DNA of 64,000 nucleotides from Halobellus sp. MBLA0158 (GTDB lineage Archaea > Halobacteriota > Halobacteria > Halobacteriales > Haloferacaceae). Location of the stretch: positions 496,001-560,000 of the forward strand of contig NZ_JBGNYA010000001.1 of the NCBI RefSeq assembly GCF_041477585.1, in the 5' to 3' direction. A program made the translations under genes and the position numbers. Numbering within the stretch: position 1 is the first letter of the stretch; every line of letters starts with the position of its first letter. The notes under the pieces are model-generated. The model was not told the DNA's origin and did not search any database. It saw nothing but the letters and a program-made list of their open reading frames with translations. Positions 1-10,084 of this stretch are shown here, piece by piece.

Positions 1-786
1 GTGCCGGAAACAGTGCCACGTCTCGCCACCTTCGAAGACTTTGAAGTTCGTGCCAGTTTCGGACCCGTGGTAGGGGTGACTGACCCGCTTATCCTCCGAA
101 AATGACGAACTGAGTACGTCGAATACGTCGAGTTCGACATCGTTCGGTGGACTATTGGAAAACGTCTGTACTTCCGATGACTCGAGGGTATCATCTTCGG
201 TGTGGCTCTGCAACCATTCCTCGAATTCGGACGGAGTGTTACAAGTCGTGGGAGTTACCGACAGATGGTCTCCCGTCATCGTGATGTACTGGCCGGAATC
301 GTAGACTTCGATACAGTCAGTATCAATCCACCAGTCCGGTTCCTGCACATCCTTCAACCAAATGTGGAGGCCCGTCGCGGATGGCGATACTTCGGCGTAG
401 GAGTCGCACTCGCGTAGTGCATCGATCACCCACTCCTCTGGCTCACCGGTCTCAGGGTTGCACACATCGTCAAAGTCGATGGCGAGGAATGGGTCATCTT
501 CAGTGAGGACGAAACCAACTTGAAGTCCGACCTGATTCGAGGAGGCTTCAACAGCTTCCTCGAAACTGCCCCACGTCGTTGGGTCATTCGTTCGGGCCGT
601 TCGGCCACTCCCGTTCGGTACTCGGGGGATCTTCCGCTTCCGGTCTCCATCTTCGACCCGCTCCCAACATACCCACTGGTCGAGGGCCTGCAACTCCTCA
701 GGAACAGGATGTTCCGTTTCCTGTTCCTCATCGGATGGATCAGCCAAGCCTAGTTCCTCGTCCGTAATTCGGACTTCTCCACTCAT
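1..786 (-). CDS. Primase-polymerase (AEP superfamily, NrS-1-like), 5' part only
   Basis: The first 262 codons are visible; the gene continues beyond the left edge. I read this frame from the sequence: ATG at 786 with no stop down to base 1. Visible motifs fit an archaeo-eukaryotic primase/polymerase of the phage NrS-1 polymerase type: an N-terminal segment with QWVCWERVEDGDRKRKIPR (about residues 37-55), the acidic metal-binding motif AIDFDD (102-107), SPSATGLH with the motif II histidine (134-141), and IEVYDSGQYITMTG (159-172) carrying the third acidic residue. Past about residue 245 a possible zinc-binding HCFRH begins. Such proteins prime and copy DNA of plasmids and viruses; a C-terminal helicase part may lie outside the window. 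The start overlaps the stop of the upstream small gene (ATGA), so the two are translationally coupled. The family is inferred from motifs only. Confidence 0.8.
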   Translation of the reverse strand, partial: MSGEVRITDEELGLADPSDEEQETEHPVPEELQALDQWVCWERVEDGDRKRKIPRVPNGSGRTARTNDPTTWGSFEEAVEASSNQVGLQVGFVLTEDDPFLAIDFDDVCNPETGEPEEWVIDALRECDSYAEVSPSATGLHIWLKDVQEPDWWIDTDCIEVYDSGQYITMTGDHLSVTPTTCNTPSEFEEWLQSHTEDDTLESSEVQTFSNSPPNDVELDVFDVLSSSFSEDKRVSHPYHGSETGTNFKVFEGGETWHCFRH

Positions 787-2661: not shown

Positions 2662-4416
2662 ATGACCGAGTATATGCTCAAATCGTATAGGTTAGAAAAT
2701 TACAAGTCCATCAAAAACTCGCCCGATATTGATTTGAACGGGCTAACACTCATTTTGGGTCCAAATAGTTCTGGGAAGACAAATATACTTGAGTCTTTGA
2801 TTTTATTAAAACAATCTCTTGACCAAGGAGATATTAGCTTAACACTCAATGGAGATTATATTGACTTAGGAGAATATAGAGATATTGTCCATATGAAGGA
2901 CCCTTCTGAGAGGATTGGATACAGGTTCACTTTTCGAAGAGATTCAACAGAGGGTGACGAAGATGTAGAATACGAGTGCCCTATCTGCCACAAAGAATAC
3001 CTTAGATACGAGGGGCATTATACAAATCATTTAGCCGATGAACATCCACAATTTTGGGAAATTTGTGGTGGAAAATATGGAGAAGATATAAAAAAGTATG
3101 AAGACTTCCTCATTTCTGATATGAATGTTGAGATATACCACAAATATAATGAAGAGGTTAAGTCAAGTATGTTTGACGAATTGCGATTTGTTAATCCTCC
3201 ACCGTTCTCTGGTCTATTCCTCTCTGAACTACGAATACAGGCTACAGAATCCGGATTTACTGTAACTGCCGACGATATTGAAGGAAGGAGAATATTAGAG
3301 ATCTCGGTCAGAGAAGAGGAGTTGGATGCTGACTATCCAGATGATTTATCTGGCCTAATAAGATTGATTAGAAGAATAGCATTTCTCTATGTCGGAGGGT
3401 CTGATGACGATAACAGGCTTCCTTGGCAGTATAGGTACGAAATCAGTAAGAGCGGCGAAAACGGGTCTTTCCCAGACATATACAAACACTCTGAACAACT
3501 TGCTGAAATATACGATAGCGTTTACCAACAAGGAATAGAATACGCTAAAAATTATGAGGACAGCATTCAGGCCCTCGCAGCCGGTCTATTAGGTCGAACC
3601 AGTTCAATCGCAAGGAGTCAACTGGAGCCAATAAAGATTCTTAGCGAGTCATTAGATGAGCTGGTGCATATTGGTCCACTCAGAAGGAATCCTCAAAGAA
3701 TATATTTCGGAAGTGGTGGGAGGCCAGGTCAGCTTTACTCTCAAGGAGAAAATATAGAAGATATGATATTTAAGGCTCAACAGAGCGGTGAGTCTCAATT
3801 AATAGAGAAGACGAACCAGTGGTTATCTGATTGTGGATTTGATGTTCAATTAGGAATATCTGAGGTTGGATTCGGTGATTTATACCAGTTAGTGGTGGAA
3901 GAAGATGGTCTCTCGATAAATTTAGCTGATTCTGGGTTTGGATTGTCCCAGACTTTGCCAATTATTGTTAGAGCTGTGAATATGGACTTAAAAAGAGAGC
4001 AAGAGCAGGAGCGCTCCAATATGACCCGCTGGGTCCCACCCCGTTCAAGACAAGTTCAAAATAGGTTTATGATGTTAATTGAACAGCCGGAGATTCATCT
4101 TAATCCACGAATAGAAGCTGATATAGGTGACTTTTTCATCGATATTATTGAGAGCGACATAGATTTGATTATTGAAACTCATTCTGAACACCTCCTAAAT
4201 CGAATACAGAGAAGAGTCGCAGATGATACCATTGAAGATGACCGTGTATCTATATATTTCGTTTCAAAACCGGAGGAAGAGAGCGATATCGAGGAAATTA
4301 TTATGGATTCAAATGGGAGATTTGACAATTGGCCAGCCGGATTCTTCCAGGACGATTTTGAGGAAGCAATTGAAATCTTGAAAGAATCACTACCAAACTC
4401 TGAGACTATTCAATAA
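2662..4416 (+). CDS. AAA family ATPase with DUF3696-type C-terminus and embedded C2H2 zinc finger
   Basis: A 584-residue ABC/RecF-type ATPase. Walker A GPNSSGKT lies at about residues 33-40, preceded by the usual YRLENYKSIKNSP start; Walker B MMLIEQPE ends at E477; the H-loop IETHSEH is at 504-510. The C-terminus (about 527-572, with NWPAGFFQDDF) matches the DUF3696 signature seen at the end of many OLD/RecF-like defence ATPases. Between Walker A and the lid is a C2H2-like zinc finger: C106, C109, H123, H128. I chose ATG 2662 because it places the beta-strand directly before Walker A; ATG 2674 is the alternative. Base composition is near 40% GC, far below the core genome, a sign of transfer. 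The stop overlaps the ATG of the PIN nuclease by one base, so the ATPase probably regulates or loads that nuclease. The defence role is inferred from family and context. Confidence 0.88.
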   Translation: MTEYMLKSYRLENYKSIKNSPDIDLNGLTLILGPNSSGKTNILESLILLKQSLDQGDISLTLNGDYIDLGEYRDIVHMKDPSERIGYRFTFRRDSTEGDEDVEYECPICHKEYLRYEGHYTNHLADEHPQFWEICGGKYGEDIKKYEDFLISDMNVEIYHKYNEEVKSSMFDELRFVNPPPFSGLFLSELRIQATESGFTVTADDIEGRRILEISVREEELDADYPDDLSGLIRLIRRIAFLYVGGSDDDNRLPWQYRYEISKSGENGSFPDIYKHSEQLAEIYDSVYQQGIEYAKNYEDSIQALAAGLLGRTSSIARSQLEPIKILSESLDELVHIGPLRRNPQRIYFGSGGRPGQLYSQGENIEDMIFKAQQSGESQLIEKTNQWLSDCGFDVQLGISEVGFGDLYQLVVEEDGLSINLADSGFGLSQTLPIIVRAVNMDLKREQEQERSNMTRWVPPRSRQVQNRFMMLIEQPEIHLNPRIEADIGDFFIDIIESDIDLIIETHSEHLLNRIQRRVADDTIEDDRVSIYFVSKPEEESDIEEIIMDSNGRFDNWPAGFFQDDFEEAIEILKESLPNSETIQ

Positions 4417-4907
4417 TGCCTGACTCAGCAGCCGTAGATACGAATATATTGGTTCACGCGTCAGACGGTGATATCGACGCTGACCAGTATATGGAATCTC
4501 TCTATATTTTAGTACGCCTTCTTGAAGATAATTTATTTGCGCTGGCTATCGACAATGAATATGAAATATTAGATGAATATCGACAGAATTTGGATTCAAT
4601 CAACACAGACCACTGCAATGCACTCCAGGAATTTATTCAGCGACAAGTCTACCAGAAACAGGGTGAAGAAGGGGTAGCTATTCATATTCCAATCCCAGAG
4701 AGCCAAGTTTCGGAATTAGATGAAATGGGCTTCCATAGCTCAGATATGAAATTTGTTCGAATTGCTCCTGCTACAGGAATGGAAATCATCGCCAGTTCTG
4801 ATGGACGTTCCTTTTTAGAAGATGAGTATAAAGATTGGATAGAGAGTAATTTAGATGTTAATGTCCACGATACTTCAGAATTCAAAGAATATTTAGACGA
4901 TTTATAA
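4416..4907 (+). CDS. PIN-domain nuclease, partner of the AAA ATPase
   Basis: A 163-residue protein with the PIN acidic tetrad: D8 in VDTNILVH (with N10), E50 in EYEILDEY, D110 in SSDMKFVRIA and D129 in IIASSDGRSF. PIN proteins are metal-dependent nucleases, mostly acting on RNA. The ATG overlaps the stop of the ATPase (TAATG), and both share AT-rich codon use, so they form one unit. Unlike VapC toxins it has no small antitoxin beside it; the partner is a large ATPase, which argues for a regulated effector rather than a simple toxin-antitoxin. Substrate unknown. Family assignment is good; function in defence is inference. Confidence 0.8.
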   Translation: MPDSAAVDTNILVHASDGDIDADQYMESLYILVRLLEDNLFALAIDNEYEILDEYRQNLDSINTDHCNALQEFIQRQVYQKQGEEGVAIHIPIPESQVSELDEMGFHSSDMKFVRIAPATGMEIIASSDGRSFLEDEYKDWIESNLDVNVHDTSEFKEYLDDL

Positions 4908-5394
4908 GCACGGAGGAATTGAGATTGGTCCTCATTCTCACTTATTATCTTGTAGTTAGAGAAGCACCTCCCACGCAGTTTGAACATACGCAGACCCACC
5001 TCGACGAACGTAGACATCTGAATACCGAGGGAGTTTAACAGGTGTCACGACAATTGTTCTGTACACCCTGCTACACAGTATTGGAGTTTCTCCTCCGACT
5101 CAATCGACCACAAGCCGTGACAGTAGGTACACCCACCGGTAATCAGGCGACCATCTCGTCCGAGGATTGCTGTTTACCGACTTGTCCCTCATCGGTAGAA
5201 TAGCACAGTCGGACGAGTGGAAAGTTCTGACATAGAATCAACACGAACCATACCGCTCCTTTTCATCCAAACCGTCCATAATTAGGATGTATGAGCTTTC
5301 TACCAAGGAATTAAGTTTCCCCACCGTATCAAACATTGCAGAACGCAACACGCTGTCGGGTGCTCCGGAACTGGGAACCCCTCCGTGAACTACA
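4908..5394. other. Intergenic region with repeat copy A
   Basis: Nearly 490 bp between the PIN gene and the end of the convergent lipoprotein gene. No frame looks coding. Its central part (5041-5150) is a diverged copy of a sequence found again at 8302-8420; the remainder shows nothing I can interpret. Confidence 0.6.
5041..5150 (+). repeat. Diverged direct repeat, copy A (after ATPase-PIN cassette)
   Basis: Matches 8302-8420 in the same orientation. The best core, 5117-5146 versus 8386-8416, agrees at 28 of 31 positions with one single-base gap; a second conserved block, 5044-5059 versus 8308-8323, agrees at 14 of 16. The blocks are 73 and 78 bp apart in the two copies. Both copies lie just downstream of the last gene of a nuclease cassette. 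It may be a remnant end of a mobile unit, a recombination site or a shared terminator. Confidence 0.65.
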
Positions 5395-6246
5395 CTATAC
5401 TACCTCAAAGGACCACACTTCACCAATATCGTCTATCCGGAATGTATACTCCCCGGAATCAGATGGAGCAGTAACAGTTCCCGATTCCCGAGTTCTCGTT
5501 TCTCCTGCTGGAATTGTTAGTTCGAATTGTGTATCCTCATAAGTGTACCATTCTGAACGATCTCTTTTCACAGATAGGGTAGAGACAATACTACTATCTC
5601 GGTTTGCGGTGTTCTCTAATTCCAGACTATAGCTGTACGACTCGTCTGGCTGGAGTGACTCTGGCCCACTATATGAAATCAGTTTGGCCTCTCCGTCACC
5701 TAATGGTGAATTTAAACTAAACTCCCCGATTGTTTTGGATGAGACTTTTCCACTAATGTTGTCCTTGATTATGACCTCCGCCTCATATTCACCAAGATCC
5801 CAGCCTTCGGTTTCAAAATCGAAGGCTCCTTCCCACTCTTGATACCCTTCTCCGTCTACTAATTGTTGATCTTCGCTTGAGGTTTGAGCAACCCTTGTGC
5901 CAGAGGAATCGAAAATTCTCGCTTGTTTCGTTATGTCGTGCTCGCCGTCGTGGACTTGAACGCTGTACCTGTAGCCGATAACAATAGAAGCACCTCGGCC
6001 AGCTCCTTCGATAGATCTCGCTGTAACATCCCCGAATTCCTGCCACTCTGATACAAGATTTACATTAGAAACTACGGGCTTTAGCGAGGTTGGTGTTGAA
6101 CTTCTTGTCGGAGTTGAGGTTTCTATCGGTGAGGGCGTCGGGGTGTTCTCAGCAGTATCTTCTGTCTCCTCTTCACTTTGAGAATCTCCTAAACATCCAG
6201 CCAGAAGAGCTAATGATGTGCCCGTGATAACCTCTCTTCGCTTCAT
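5395..6246 (-). CDS. Tat-dependent lipoprotein, hypothetical
   Basis: A 283-residue secreted protein. The N-terminus MKRREVITGTSLALLAGC has a twin-arginine start and a lipobox with Cys18, typical of haloarchaeal lipoproteins exported by Tat and anchored by lipid. A Thr/Ser/Pro-rich linker (about residues 30-55) leads to a beta-rich region, probably two immunoglobulin-like domains; the C-terminal part (about 190-283) resembles the CARDB-type fold used in many haloarchaeal surface proteins. It is divergent from the three-gene nuclease cassette (106 bp apart) and could be part of the same mobile unit, since both lie between the two repeat copies. The ligand is unknown. Confidence 0.75.
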   Translation of the reverse strand: MKRREVITGTSLALLAGCLGDSQSEEETEDTAENTPTPSPIETSTPTRSSTPTSLKPVVSNVNLVSEWQEFGDVTARSIEGAGRGASIVIGYRYSVQVHDGEHDITKQARIFDSSGTRVAQTSSEDQQLVDGEGYQEWEGAFDFETEGWDLGEYEAEVIIKDNISGKVSSKTIGEFSLNSPLGDGEAKLISYSGPESLQPDESYSYSLELENTANRDSSIVSTLSVKRDRSEWYTYEDTQFELTIPAGETRTRESGTVTAPSDSGEYTFRIDDIGEVWSFEVV

Positions 6247-6352
6247 AATACCATCTTAACAGGTGGTGGCTTATGATTTTGCCTAACACCATCTCCTCTA
6301 TCCATAGCGGCAATCAATAGAAGTCAAAGATTTTTGACGACCGCTCATTTTT

Positions 6353-6964
6353 ATGCGGAATATGAAATCCTCTGTGCTACTGGAGCAACTTGCTGATGAC
6401 TTCGCTTCAATAATCTCTTCTATTGATACAGAGGCAGAACACGATCGATGGCAAGCAGGTATCGGCCCCTTCGAGGAAGAGCGACAAATCGAGATGCTCC
6501 GAGATGCTCTCGAAGGAGACATCAGCTACTCCATCGAGACGGAAGCGCCGTATCTTGATGGAGGACAACGTGTTGACCTCTTCATCGAGAGCGAGGAGAC
6601 AGCGATTCCGGTCGAGGCGAAGCTCCTCCGCTTCCGTTACGACAATGGGAATATTGACCCGAACAGTTTTGCGAAGGTTTTCAGCCCCTTCCCCGAACGG
6701 ACCACGTCGACCCTCCTCACAGACGCTCAAAAGCTCCACGAGGCAGGCTTTGAGGAGAGTGGCGGACTGCTTGGACTCTACTACGAGCCCGCAGACGAGT
6801 CATATGAGCGGATGAGTCCCGAAGCTGTCGCGGAAAAGTTCGCTCTCGATGTCGACTATTGGTATGAATTCGAGGTTGAGCTGAGGAACATCGCTCACTT
6901 CGAGGGACTGCGTCACCCTGTGCATCAACAGGGAGCCATCATAACGTGGGAGATTATCGAATGA
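6353..6964 (+). CDS. PD-(D/E)XK nuclease-like protein, first gene of cassette
   Basis: A 203-residue protein with a plausible PD-(D/E)XK core: D75 in GGQRVDLFIES and E88-x-K90 in TAIPVEAKLL, separated by a predicted hairpin as in restriction-endonuclease-like folds. An upstream helix (about residues 40-55) may carry the supporting glutamate. No helicase or methylase domain is attached. The start at 6353 is followed by another ATG at 6362, which is equally possible. Its stop overlaps the next ATG (ATGA, 6961-6964), so it is translationally coupled to the DUF6884-like gene. It probably cuts nucleic acid or senses it; the target is not visible. GC content is intermediate between the ATPase cassette and the core genome. 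Confidence 0.6.
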   Translation: MRNMKSSVLLEQLADDFASIISSIDTEAEHDRWQAGIGPFEEERQIEMLRDALEGDISYSIETEAPYLDGGQRVDLFIESEETAIPVEAKLLRFRYDNGNIDPNSFAKVFSPFPERTTSTLLTDAQKLHEAGFEESGGLLGLYYEPADESYERMSPEAVAEKFALDVDYWYEFEVELRNIAHFEGLRHPVHQQGAIITWEIIE

Positions 6965-7389
6965 CCCGAGAAATCGGTCTCGTCAGTTGCGTCAAGACCA
7001 AGCGAGACGAGCCTGCAATGCCGAAGGAACTCTACACCTCCGACTACTTCGAGAAGATGCATTTCTACGCCGAACAGTATCACGACGACTGGTGGATACT
7101 CTCGGCCAAACACGGTCTCCTTGACCCAGACGGAGAGCCTATCGAACCATACGACGAAACACTCAGTGGCGCGAGAGTGGCGACAAAGCGAGAGTGGGCC
7201 GAGAGGGTAGCTGGCCAGTTAGACGAGGAAGGCTTGCTTTCGGACGACGTGACGCTCGTTCTCCACGCGGGCAAGGACTACTACGAAGAATTGCTCCCAC
7301 TCATCGAAGACAGAGGGGTTTCTGTCGAGATACCGACTGAGGGCTTACGAATTGGGAAGACGAAGGCTTGGTACAAGGAACGGATATGA
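6961..7389 (+). CDS. DUF6884-like protein
   Basis: A 142-residue protein starting at ATG 6961, overlapping the stop of the preceding gene; the open frame begins a few codons earlier but that ATG lies inside the upstream gene. The pattern LVSCVKTKRDEPAMPKELY near the N-terminus, then WWILSAKHGLLDP (about 45-57) and IEPYDETL, matches the family I know as DUF6884, whose members occur in phages and mobile elements and resemble nucleotide- or base-handling enzymes. Cys10 and His50 are conserved-looking candidates for active-site residues. The stop overlaps the ATG of the GIY-YIG gene. The biochemical activity is unknown. Confidence 0.65.
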   Translation: MTREIGLVSCVKTKRDEPAMPKELYTSDYFEKMHFYAEQYHDDWWILSAKHGLLDPDGEPIEPYDETLSGARVATKREWAERVAGQLDEEGLLSDDVTLVLHAGKDYYEELLPLIEDRGVSVEIPTEGLRIGKTKAWYKERI

Positions 7390-8276
7390 CGGAAGCTGAT
7401 TTCTACGCTCTCGACTGGCTTGACCTCAACTGGTCCGAGTGGAAACCACTCGACGCAGACTCGTTCTCGGGGGTGCCCAAAGAAGCGGGACTGTACCGTA
7501 TCCGCCATCGGGAAAACGAACGCGACCACCTCGAATATATCGGTGAGTCCGGTGATACACGAAGACGGATTCAGAGCCTCGCCAGAGGAACCTACGCAGA
7601 GGAGATGCCCTACCGTGACCCACATACTGCGGCTCCCTGCCTCTGGGCAGTTCGAGATGACGTTGGCTCTGCGCTCGAAGTCTCACACACGACTTCGCCA
7701 AAGGCACAAGACGAGCAACATCGTAAAGGCATAGAGGCGGCTCTCATCGCCCTCCACCGACGCGAGACGAACCGTAGCCCGACAGCGAACTTCGGTCGAA
7801 TCATCGACGGCTACAAGCAATCTTCATACAGCTACAACGATCCTGCGTACAAGGGTGGCCGTCTCGAATCGGGTGAGGAGGAACCTAATTCTGCGAGTGG
7901 CATCGAGCCTCCAGACTGGCAGAACTGGTGTGAACCACTCGCCCGAGACTGGATGGGCCTCGACTGGTCGGAGCCGTACCGACTTGCAGAACGCCTCGAC
8001 GCCGACCCACCTGACACGGGGGTCTATCGTATCTGGTACGAGGGGCAGGCTTCGACCTTGGCATACATCGGGGAATCCAGCAATATCTCTTCACGTCTCT
8101 ACAACCACGAGCAGACCTTCGGAGAGAACACGCTCTTTGCCTACGCTAAGCGGAGTGATCTCAATGCCCCGCACAAGCGCGCGGAAGTAGAAACTGACCT
8201 CATCGGAGCCTACTACCTCGAAATCGGGGAAGCACCGCTCGTGCAGTTTGGATATTCGGGAAACAATCCTCCGTGA
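7386..8276 (+). CDS. Tandem GIY-YIG nuclease-like protein
   Basis: A 296-residue protein with two GIY-YIG-type units. Unit 1 has GLYRIRH at about 37-43 and LEYIGESGDTRRRI, with a catalytic-glutamate candidate in IEAALIALH. Unit 2 has GVYRIWY and LAYIGESSNISSRL, with a glutamate in EVETDLIGAYYLEIGEAPLVQFG. Each unit is introduced by a similar WLDLNWSEW / WMGLDWSEP segment, so the protein arose by internal duplication. GIY-YIG domains cut DNA in homing and restriction enzymes. The ATG at 7386 overlaps the stop of the DUF6884-like gene; the protein is the last member of a three-gene unit. Two nuclease folds in one operon without a methyltransferase suggest a modification-dependent restriction or a DNA-processing system; this is inference. 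Confidence 0.7.
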   Translation: MTEADFYALDWLDLNWSEWKPLDADSFSGVPKEAGLYRIRHRENERDHLEYIGESGDTRRRIQSLARGTYAEEMPYRDPHTAAPCLWAVRDDVGSALEVSHTTSPKAQDEQHRKGIEAALIALHRRETNRSPTANFGRIIDGYKQSSYSYNDPAYKGGRLESGEEEPNSASGIEPPDWQNWCEPLARDWMGLDWSEPYRLAERLDADPPDTGVYRIWYEGQASTLAYIGESSNISSRLYNHEQTFGENTLFAYAKRSDLNAPHKRAEVETDLIGAYYLEIGEAPLVQFGYSGNNPP

Positions 8277-8301
8277 CCACCGATAATTGGATACCGGGGT
8301 T

Positions 8302-8420
8302 GGTGCTGTCACAACAATTTTTCGGATCCACTTTTGCCACACACATAGTATCAACAGTTCTCTTCGATTCAATTGATTGAGACCTGTGACAGTTGGTACA
8401 CCCCACCGGTATTCAGTTGA
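8302..8420 (+). repeat. Diverged direct repeat, copy B (after GIY-YIG cassette)
   Basis: Second copy of the repeat at 5041-5150, same orientation, beginning 25 bp after the stop of the tandem GIY-YIG gene. The core 8386-8416 is the best conserved part. The two copies bracket the lipoprotein and the three-gene cassette, a unit of about 3.2 kb. The rest of the intergenic stretch to 8550 shows nothing recognisable. Confidence 0.65.
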
Positions 8421-8550
8421 TTATGTTGTTCAGTTCTATTGTATACTGAGTTGCTTCCCGCGGGTAGAGTTGTGCGATCAAGCTATCGGTGAGTCCCATT
8501 CCTATCGACAGCGTATTCTGACCCTGTAGAGTAACTAAATATATCTCAGA

Positions 8551-9699
8551 TCATATCTTGTCCAGTAGGTCAGACTTCTTTTCCGCAAATTCCTCATCGT
8601 TAACGACGCCTTGATCATGTAGTGCTTTTAACTGTTCAAGCTGTTCCAGCGGATCTGGTTCGGAGTTTTTCGCTTGAACAGTATTGGGTTGCTTTGCCTC
8701 GGACATCTTCTCGCGAATGAAGCGGGTTATCTCACGGAGTTCATCTTTCCCAGGCTCATGCGCCTCAATATGGTAGGTTTGACCTGGTGTCTGAAGCGTA
8801 AGACGCTTGTTTACCAGTCCTGTGTCCATATCGACGCTCGTGATGTTTGAATATGGAACCGATCTTTCATCATTACCGAGGAACTGCGGCACTTTCACCG
8901 CGACTCGACGGTCGGTAACCACTGCGCGGACGTAGCCTCTTGTCCCTGACTTTCGGCTGCGGTCGTCGCCAAACAGTGACCCACCTGCTCCAGAACCTTC
9001 CACGTCAACCGTCGATCCCCTTGTCAAGAAATGGACGACCTCATCGTCATCAAGGATGTCGACTATCTTCTTTAGTCGATCAGGCGTTACATAGCTTCCA
9101 CACGGTTTGTCGCTTTCGGGCAGTCGTTCATCTAGAGAGAGTTGTTTCTTATCAGTACTCTCATTCCAGAGCGCTCCAAAATCCGAAATCGGCGTCAGAT
9201 AATTTTCACCATTCGCCTCACCGGCAGAATCAGCCTTATCTCGAATGTATTCCGCGGCATCTTCCAGTTCTCCTTTATTCTGACTGACGTACATATCATA
9301 CTCTGCTCTCTCCGTAACGATGGTTAACTTTGATTTTGTAAGGCCAGTCTTGCTCCGAGCATCTTCCACCATCTCATATGATGCTGCCATCGCTTCGTTA
9401 CCGTTAGCGAAAAAAATAATTCGTTGGTCTGTTATAAGACAGAGACTCCGATTCTCATTAGTTACACCGCTCCCTACGGCCTCCCCGTTTTTTTGAATCC
9501 CTTTGCTTACGTTGAAAAAGAAATGGTGCGGCTGCTCATCCTCTTTTAGCACCTCAAGAAGGGGCTTTACTGTGAGGTAGTCACTTTCCAAGCGCTTTGT
9601 CGTCACCGTGAGAACATCACTTGTAACGCTATCACCACGGGCGCTTGACGCCAAAGTGTCGGCTTCCCCACCGTCTCCACCGCTTCCGAATAAACCCAT
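8551..9699 (-). CDS. Bacterial-PH-domain and SHOCT-domain protein
   Basis: A 382-residue soluble protein. It has two PH-like modules: one around residues 50-160 with RSLCLITDQRIIFFANG, and one around 210-340 with YVRAVVTDRRVAVKVP and the following SNITSVDMDTG strand, both typical of bacterial PH (YvbH/bPH) domains. The C-terminus (about 350-382, PLEQLEQLKALHDQGVVNDEEFAEKK) is a SHOCT oligomerisation motif. The Gly-rich start MGLFGSGGDGG is usual for this architecture. Proteins of this type are thought to scaffold at membranes; substrates are unknown. It is the last gene of the island before the tRNA and stands alone on its strand. Domain calls are firm, function open. Confidence 0.8.
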   Translation of the reverse strand: MGLFGSGGDGGEADTLASSARGDSVTSDVLTVTTKRLESDYLTVKPLLEVLKEDEQPHHFFFNVSKGIQKNGEAVGSGVTNENRSLCLITDQRIIFFANGNEAMAASYEMVEDARSKTGLTKSKLTIVTERAEYDMYVSQNKGELEDAAEYIRDKADSAGEANGENYLTPISDFGALWNESTDKKQLSLDERLPESDKPCGSYVTPDRLKKIVDILDDDEVVHFLTRGSTVDVEGSGAGGSLFGDDRSRKSGTRGYVRAVVTDRRVAVKVPQFLGNDERSVPYSNITSVDMDTGLVNKRLTLQTPGQTYHIEAHEPGKDELREITRFIREKMSEAKQPNTVQAKNSEPDPLEQLEQLKALHDQGVVNDEEFAEKKSDLLDKI

Positions 9700-10011
9700 A
9701 TCATCTCGTATTGTCCTTACTACTTAATTGTCACTTGTGTTATTATCACTGGTCAGACCTGGATATGAAAGATTCGAGTATTGTGTGTCGTGTCGCTCGT
9801 GAAAACCCTCACCTGTTGATGGTCCCAACAAGGCCAAAAACAACCATCGAAAGAACTAGATGGCTACAGTCAGTAGTTCTTCGTACCGACAGACGGGAGC
9901 ATCCTGCGTCTCGTCACATCCGCTCGGTGGAACTGTGGACGGTTTGAGCAATAAATGCCTATCGCACAATTCCATCGCTGTGCAGTGATTCCGAAACGAG
10001 ACGTACGAGAA
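9700..10011. other. Non-coding island edge next to tRNA-Arg
   Basis: About 310 bp between the SHOCT gene and the 3' end of tRNA-Arg. Open frames here overlap each other and look non-coding. No integrase gene and no second copy of the tRNA 3' end is visible inside the window, so the other attachment site must lie left of base 1 if the element is intact. Confidence 0.5.
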
Positions 10012-10084
10012 CGGACCCGACGGGATTTGAACCCGCGACATCCTGGTCCGGAACCAGGGACTCTGTCCACTGAGCTACGGGCCC
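10012..10084 (-). tRNA. tRNA-Arg (anticodon CCG)
   Basis: The minus strand folds as a complete 73-base tRNA: acceptor stem GGGCCCG paired with CGGGUCC (one G-U), D-arm with GCUC/GAGU, anticodon stem CCUGG/CCAGG with loop UUCCGGA giving anticodon CCG (Arg, codon CGG), and T-arm GCGGGUUCAAAUCCCGU. The discriminator is G and CCA is not encoded. No intron. The 3' end faces the accessory island, the orientation expected when a tyrosine integrase has used the tRNA 3' half as its attachment site. Confidence 0.95.

Follow-up and report, generated by a model that had tools for sequence, protein, structure and literature searches.

The antiviral systems of archaea are poorly known, and HEC-03, the named candidate under which we would file the gene pair described here, is listed in the catalogue with no mechanism attached. 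The HEC systems are Hma-embedded candidates obtained via guilt-by-embedding, and several of them, such as HEC-06, showed activity (PMC12988326). The one paper found to mention HEC-03 is a survey (PMC13356809); our literature search found no report of tested HEC-03 activity and none on the combination of DUF3696 with PIN. An established case of an ATPase acting with a small nuclease is PARIS, in which AriB is released via the AriA-AriB module on sensing of a phage protein (PMC12948488) and cuts tRNAs (PMC12409363).

The window, by which we mean the whole stretch of 64,000 nucleotides of Halobellus sp. MBLA0158 that was analysed, contains two ORFs on the forward strand (+), of 584 aa (2662-4416) and 163 aa (4416-4907), which share one base (TAA at 4414-4416, ATG at 4416-4418). 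On re-reading the window we recovered the ORFs, strand, coordinates and one-base overlap that had been given by a previous sequence-only reading. The ATPase start, ATG 2662, is backed by alignment, the haloarchaeal orthologue starting at the same residue. Directly upstream of the ATPase gene lie short ORFs only and, because the PIN gene is followed by a lipoprotein-like ORF lying on the opposite strand, the cassette comprises two genes. Between 3 and 5 kb the G+C content is 40%, and from 10 kb onward it is about 69%, which bears out the AT-richness of the pair relative to the chromosome. A chance origin is excluded, since both proteins retain family-invariant residues and co-recur in 93 loci.

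The larger product is predicted to be an ABC/AAA_15-type, HEC-03B-like ATPase with a DUF3696 C-terminus. Three Pfam domains score above their cut-offs, AAA_15, AAA_21 and DUF3696 (PF13175, PF13304 and PF12476), the last at residues 524-567 (4231-4362, E 4.6e-9), where 36.8 bits against a cut-off of 22 agree with the DUF3696 end reported earlier. The motif residues of a family of 54 ATPases are all retained. Invariant among the 54 are G33, N35, G38 and K39 of the Walker A motif GPNSSGKT (residues 33-40, 2758-2781), G425, G427 and Q430 of the ABC signature-like DSGFGLSQ (residues 423-430, 3928-3951), and E505, H507 and S508 of the H-loop ETHS (residues 505-508, 4174-4185); the Walker B motif EQPE (residues 474-477, 4081-4092) is nearly invariant, and its P476 is invariant. 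The structural model (pLDDT 74.8, with poor stretches at 97-136 and 220-253) is nearest to Rad50 and SMC heads and to retron Eco7 PtuA (Z 17.6), GajA (Z 16.8) and an OLD nuclease (Z 16.0); no TOPRIM domain was found in the window ATPase. A C2H2 zinc-finger-like insert, CPICHKEYLRYEGHYTNHLADEH (residues 106-128, 2977-3045), with putative ligands C106, C109, H123 and H128, is common to the window ATPase and its orthologue in genome G572, in which the four metal-ligand positions are kept. Elsewhere among the compared ATPases the C2H2 pattern occurs only in one gene, present in loci L005 and L012, with a non-PIN partner. The insert is a possible sensor.

The smaller product (4416-4907, +) is a predicted stand-alone, HEC-03A-like PIN nuclease. 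Searches of Pfam, NCBIfam and PDB sequences with the window protein alone did not call PIN. In the alignment of 81 partners just four columns are nearly invariant, namely D8, E54, D110 and D129 in window numbering, which we assign from the alignment as the PIN acidic quartet. The best PDB matches of the AF2 model (pLDDT 80.7) are PIN proteins, headed by P. horikoshii VapC4 and related proteins (Z 10.2, 135 residues, 3.7 A), with several VapC toxins and HARP, a protein-only RNase P (Z 8.6), also among them; Foldseek alone gave marginal E-values (best 5e-3). The fold and the conserved acidic quartet of the PIN-domain superfamily are both present in the window protein, so that the stand-alone PIN nuclease of the sequence-only reading is upheld by family alignment and predicted fold, without a Pfam call.

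In PADLOC, HEC-03A is the sole match of the window PIN protein within E 0.001 (E 9e-5, 20.6 bits, positions 6-131 of 163), and the G572 orthologue scores 25.9 bits against the same model. Among the relatives, 65 of 81 PIN partners have HEC-03A as their sole PADLOC family, and every one of the 54 ATPases matches HEC-03B (E<=1e-30). The window ATPase matches NsnB with 208 bits, PDC-M55A with 199 and HEC-03B with 179 (E 3.5e-53), and in the tree it is sister to a 70-row HEC-03 clade (SH-aLRT 85) on a long branch of 1.73. On the strength of these PADLOC matches and of the sister position we file the pair as a putative divergent haloarchaeal branch of HEC-03. The earlier view that it was undescribed, with no named system, has to be given up, as PADLOC-DB v2 already lists such a pair as candidate HEC-03. 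The likeness lies in adjacent same-strand genes, the first for a DUF3696-type ATPase and the second for a PIN-like protein about 160-180 aa long. The window pair differs in being a deep sister branch with a weak HEC-03A score and an ATPase whose best match is elsewhere and, together with the G572 pair, in having the zinc-finger insert and no RNA ligase.

Other systems share parts of this plan. Menshen (NsnA-NsnB-NsnC) uses the same DUF3696 ATPase family, whereas the window ATPase has a PIN partner, with neither a DUF262 NsnA nor an NsnC of about 300 aa adjoining; identity with Menshen was rejected because, although NsnB is the top ATPase match, neither NsnA nor NsnC is found among the proteins of 4416-9699. 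PDC-M55, a PADLOC candidate, resembles the pair through the PDC-M55A match of the ATPase, but the small partner matches no PDC-M55 model. PARIS likewise joins an ABC-type ATPase to a separate small nuclease and offers a working model for gated RNA cutting; however, AriB is a TOPRIM nuclease, and AriA scores only 84 bits. The window partner, a PIN fold in place of TOPRIM, has no AriB match, and identity with PARIS was rejected. Septu and the retrons Ec78 and Ec83 (PtuA-PtuB) also consist of an ATPase and an effector nuclease, and the resemblance of the window ATPase to retron Eco7 PtuA was given above. PtuB, however, is an HNH nuclease, and no retron was noticed at the window pair. This ATPase-plus-effector architecture resembles known defences of that plan, as the sequence-only reading had remarked, and the pair sits in a mobile island.

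The pair is carried by an integrative element of 13,053 bp that encodes an integrase. The target of the element is a tRNA-Arg(CCG) gene on the reverse strand (10012-10084, -; ARAGORN), and attR, a 25-bp direct repeat of the tRNA 3' end, is at 10010-10034; the attL copy, also of 25 bp, is found 3.0 kb beyond the left edge of the window (G000:C1:492982-493006). Of the 'tRNA-flanked island' proposed earlier, the tRNA-Arg in the window therefore stands, whereas the other end is a copy of the tRNA 3' end and no second tRNA. From attL inwards come an adjoining tyrosine integrase gene and a gene for a D5/primase-helicase-like protein of 835 aa, the start of which occupies 1-786 (-) and which continues past the left edge; D5_N and DUF5906 are in the C-terminal part of the protein. 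Hma-type genes are absent from the element. The empty site is uninterrupted in four congeners (G094, G122, G033 and G053). The ATPase-PIN pair is thus cargo of a mobile element integrated at tRNA-Arg, and this site is an integration hotspot with exchangeable cargo. In a further congener, G068, a different element occupies the same tRNA-Arg (L198, G068:C22:98000-113000), with an integrase 46% identical and unrelated cargo that by eye includes a P-type ATPase and UspA-like proteins. Outside attL, at a distance of 103 bp, there is an extra partial copy of the tRNA-Arg end, 17 bp long (L181 16879-16895, G000:C1:492879), which is perhaps the scar of an earlier insertion.

Relatives were fetched as 160 loci by a search with the ATPase alignment. 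Among the 80 closest genome loci, 71 have a PIN gene directly after the ATPase gene, a proportion biased upwards by the seeding of the alignment with PIN-paired ATPases; this is the adjacency of homologues that the sequence-only reading had named as a check. The same arrangement is present in 13 of 80 loci from the viral collection, in 3 of 7 from plasmids and in 6 of 10 from whole genomes (among them the window's own locus), which makes 93 pairs in total. When the window ATPase alone was the query, a PIN gene was present in 5 of 9 other archaeal matches. The commonest spacing in the relatives is a 4-base overlap, the PIN start lying inside the ATPase gene. Within the haloarchaea, an orthologous pair exists in G572, from another family of the order (ATPase 48% and PIN 40% identical); its genes overlap by 8 bases and are AT-rich like those of the window. 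The ATPase occurs in 1 of 148 genomes of the family and 2 of 392 of the order, counting the window's own. Single-protein scans of viral contigs with the window ATPase or PIN protein gave no match, and when the two haloarchaeal ATPases served as queries there were just two distant P-loop matches.

Where the PIN gene is missing, another gene takes its place, mostly encoding 290-400 aa and in some cases the NsnC of Menshen. In the ATPase tree the PIN-paired members cluster, yet in several separate places and, because of this distribution, we read the family as a common ATPase with exchangeable partners. Menshen, HEC-03 and several unnamed partners all make use of this one family, which gives the ATPase the look of a sensor core to which different effectors can be coupled. 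Members of the family also occur in viral-collection loci, L102, L112, L120 and L121 among them, beside partners of 290-400 aa that have no Pfam match above cut-off, and these appear as further unnamed pairs. Another viral-collection group (L129, L150, L154, L157, L173-L175 and L180) has a PIN-like partner starting xIDACVxxSA and is probably a separate prophage-borne version.

The surroundings of the relatives were also considered. In L078 the pair lies between type III methylase and nuclease genes, with overlapping genes, and in L049 and L065 it belongs to a helicase-ATPase-PIN-type III methylase-type III nuclease array, the helicase being our reading of the sequence. These three cases agree with the guilt-by-embedding origin of HEC-03. 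An uncontrolled tally of 139 neighbour proteins from 27 related loci gave mostly metabolic functions and no clear defence-island signal, the defence matches being scattered (MADS, PD-T4-6).

The genes, their intact active-site residues, the fold class, the conserved adjacency and the mobile carrier being established by computation, we propose, as the reading that on balance seems probable, that the pair is a two-gene, HEC-03-type module which serves abortive defence against viruses by means of an ATPase-gated PIN ribonuclease. The ATPase, a Rad50/PtuA/AriA-like head without a TOPRIM nuclease of its own, probably oligomerises, and we infer that it forms a complex with the PIN protein and keeps it silent. 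An infection cue sensed by the ATPase would then release or activate the PIN protein, which would cut RNA, most likely tRNA or another RNA of translation, so that virus production would be stopped at the expense of cell growth. PARIS appears to be the best precedent for such a scheme. In favour of defence are the PIN adjacency in 93 loci, the conservation of the quartet and of the ATPase motifs, the HEC-03 matches, the AT-rich haloarchaeal orthologous pair, the embedding of relatives in type III R-M genes, the adjacent RNA ligase described below, the mobile element with its cargo exchange, and the PARIS precedent itself. Against this reading, or against the HEC-03 label, count the higher scores of NsnB and PDC-M55A over HEC-03B, the weak HEC-03A match, the long branch, the mostly metabolic neighbours and the breadth of the PIN superfamily, which includes DNA-acting and structural members too.

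The VapC-like fold of the effector (Z about 10) and its carriage by an integrative element would also suit a toxin-antitoxin-like addiction or stabilisation module, in which the ATPase would keep the PIN toxin neutralised until loss of the element sets it free. We consider this unlikely, because the partner is a 584-aa ATPase rather than a small DNA-binding antitoxin and because the same ATPase family pairs with non-PIN proteins of 290-400 aa and is part of the Menshen defence system. Identity with VapBC itself was rejected, the ATPase lying upstream and the opposite-strand lipoprotein-like ORF downstream, with no VapB-type gene adjoining.

The substrate of an ATPase-gated PIN nuclease is pointed to, in the bacterial branch, by a third gene. 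An RNA ligase homologue directly follows the PIN gene in 40 of the 93 pairs (43%), mostly overlapping it by a few bases, and is the commonest third gene among the relatives; two tested examples were confirmed as PF09414 RNA ligases. Examples are L015 (of the Azotobacter type, 5924-6625), L018 (5526-6227) and L026 (7901-8602), and 37 other loci are alike. To our knowledge, this gene is not in the HEC-03 definition, and we regard it as a newly noticed feature of HEC-03 relatives. No RNA ligase lies beside the window pair, the haloarchaeal branch having no third gene, and the sole PF09414 match in the host genome, below cut-off, lies in a 595-aa ORF that is probably the DNA ligase. The general chemistry of PIN/FEN enzymes suggests 5'-phosphate and 3'-OH ends. 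One paper states that VapC products carry 5'-OH ends (PMC6459853), and with the end chemistry thus disputed, we give little weight to the idea that an Rnl-type ligase would suit the products of PIN enzymes. The RNA ligase also bears on a DNA-acting module, in which a Rad50/OLD-like ATPase would load the PIN protein onto invading DNA as a flap or restriction nuclease. The nearness of the ATPase model to Rad50/SMC, the degradation of phage DNA by Septu PtuAB (PMC12948488) and the pairs inside type III R-M operons are in keeping with this idea, but the ligase as commonest third gene and the solved structures matching the PIN model, mostly ribonucleases, make it quite improbable. A role in housekeeping or the cell cycle, such as has been proposed for Cran1, an archaeal OLD ATPase of Sulfolobales (PMC12796447), is very hard to credit, since Cran1 is essential and vertically inherited whereas the window pair is rare and mobile.

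Extending the ATPase-gated ribonuclease reading to the whole HEC-03 superfamily, we tentatively speculate that it may be a reversible immune module, in which the ligase of many bacterial versions would reseal cut RNA or buffer leakage and the ligase-less haloarchaeal branch would carry a zinc-finger sensor insert. The comparison offers a testable mechanism for HEC-03, namely a PIN nuclease with a fixed quartet, gating by a DUF3696 ATPase and a frequent RNA ligase, and the small haloarchaeal pair, both genes of which are intact, is suited to a transfer experiment.

The second nuclease cassette noted nearby in the sequence-only reading is present at 6353-8276. It consists of three overlapping genes, which encode a PD-(D/E)xK-like protein (VDLFIES...PVEAK), a DUF6884 protein matching PADLOC PDC-M57A with 112 bits, and a protein with two GIY-YIG halves.
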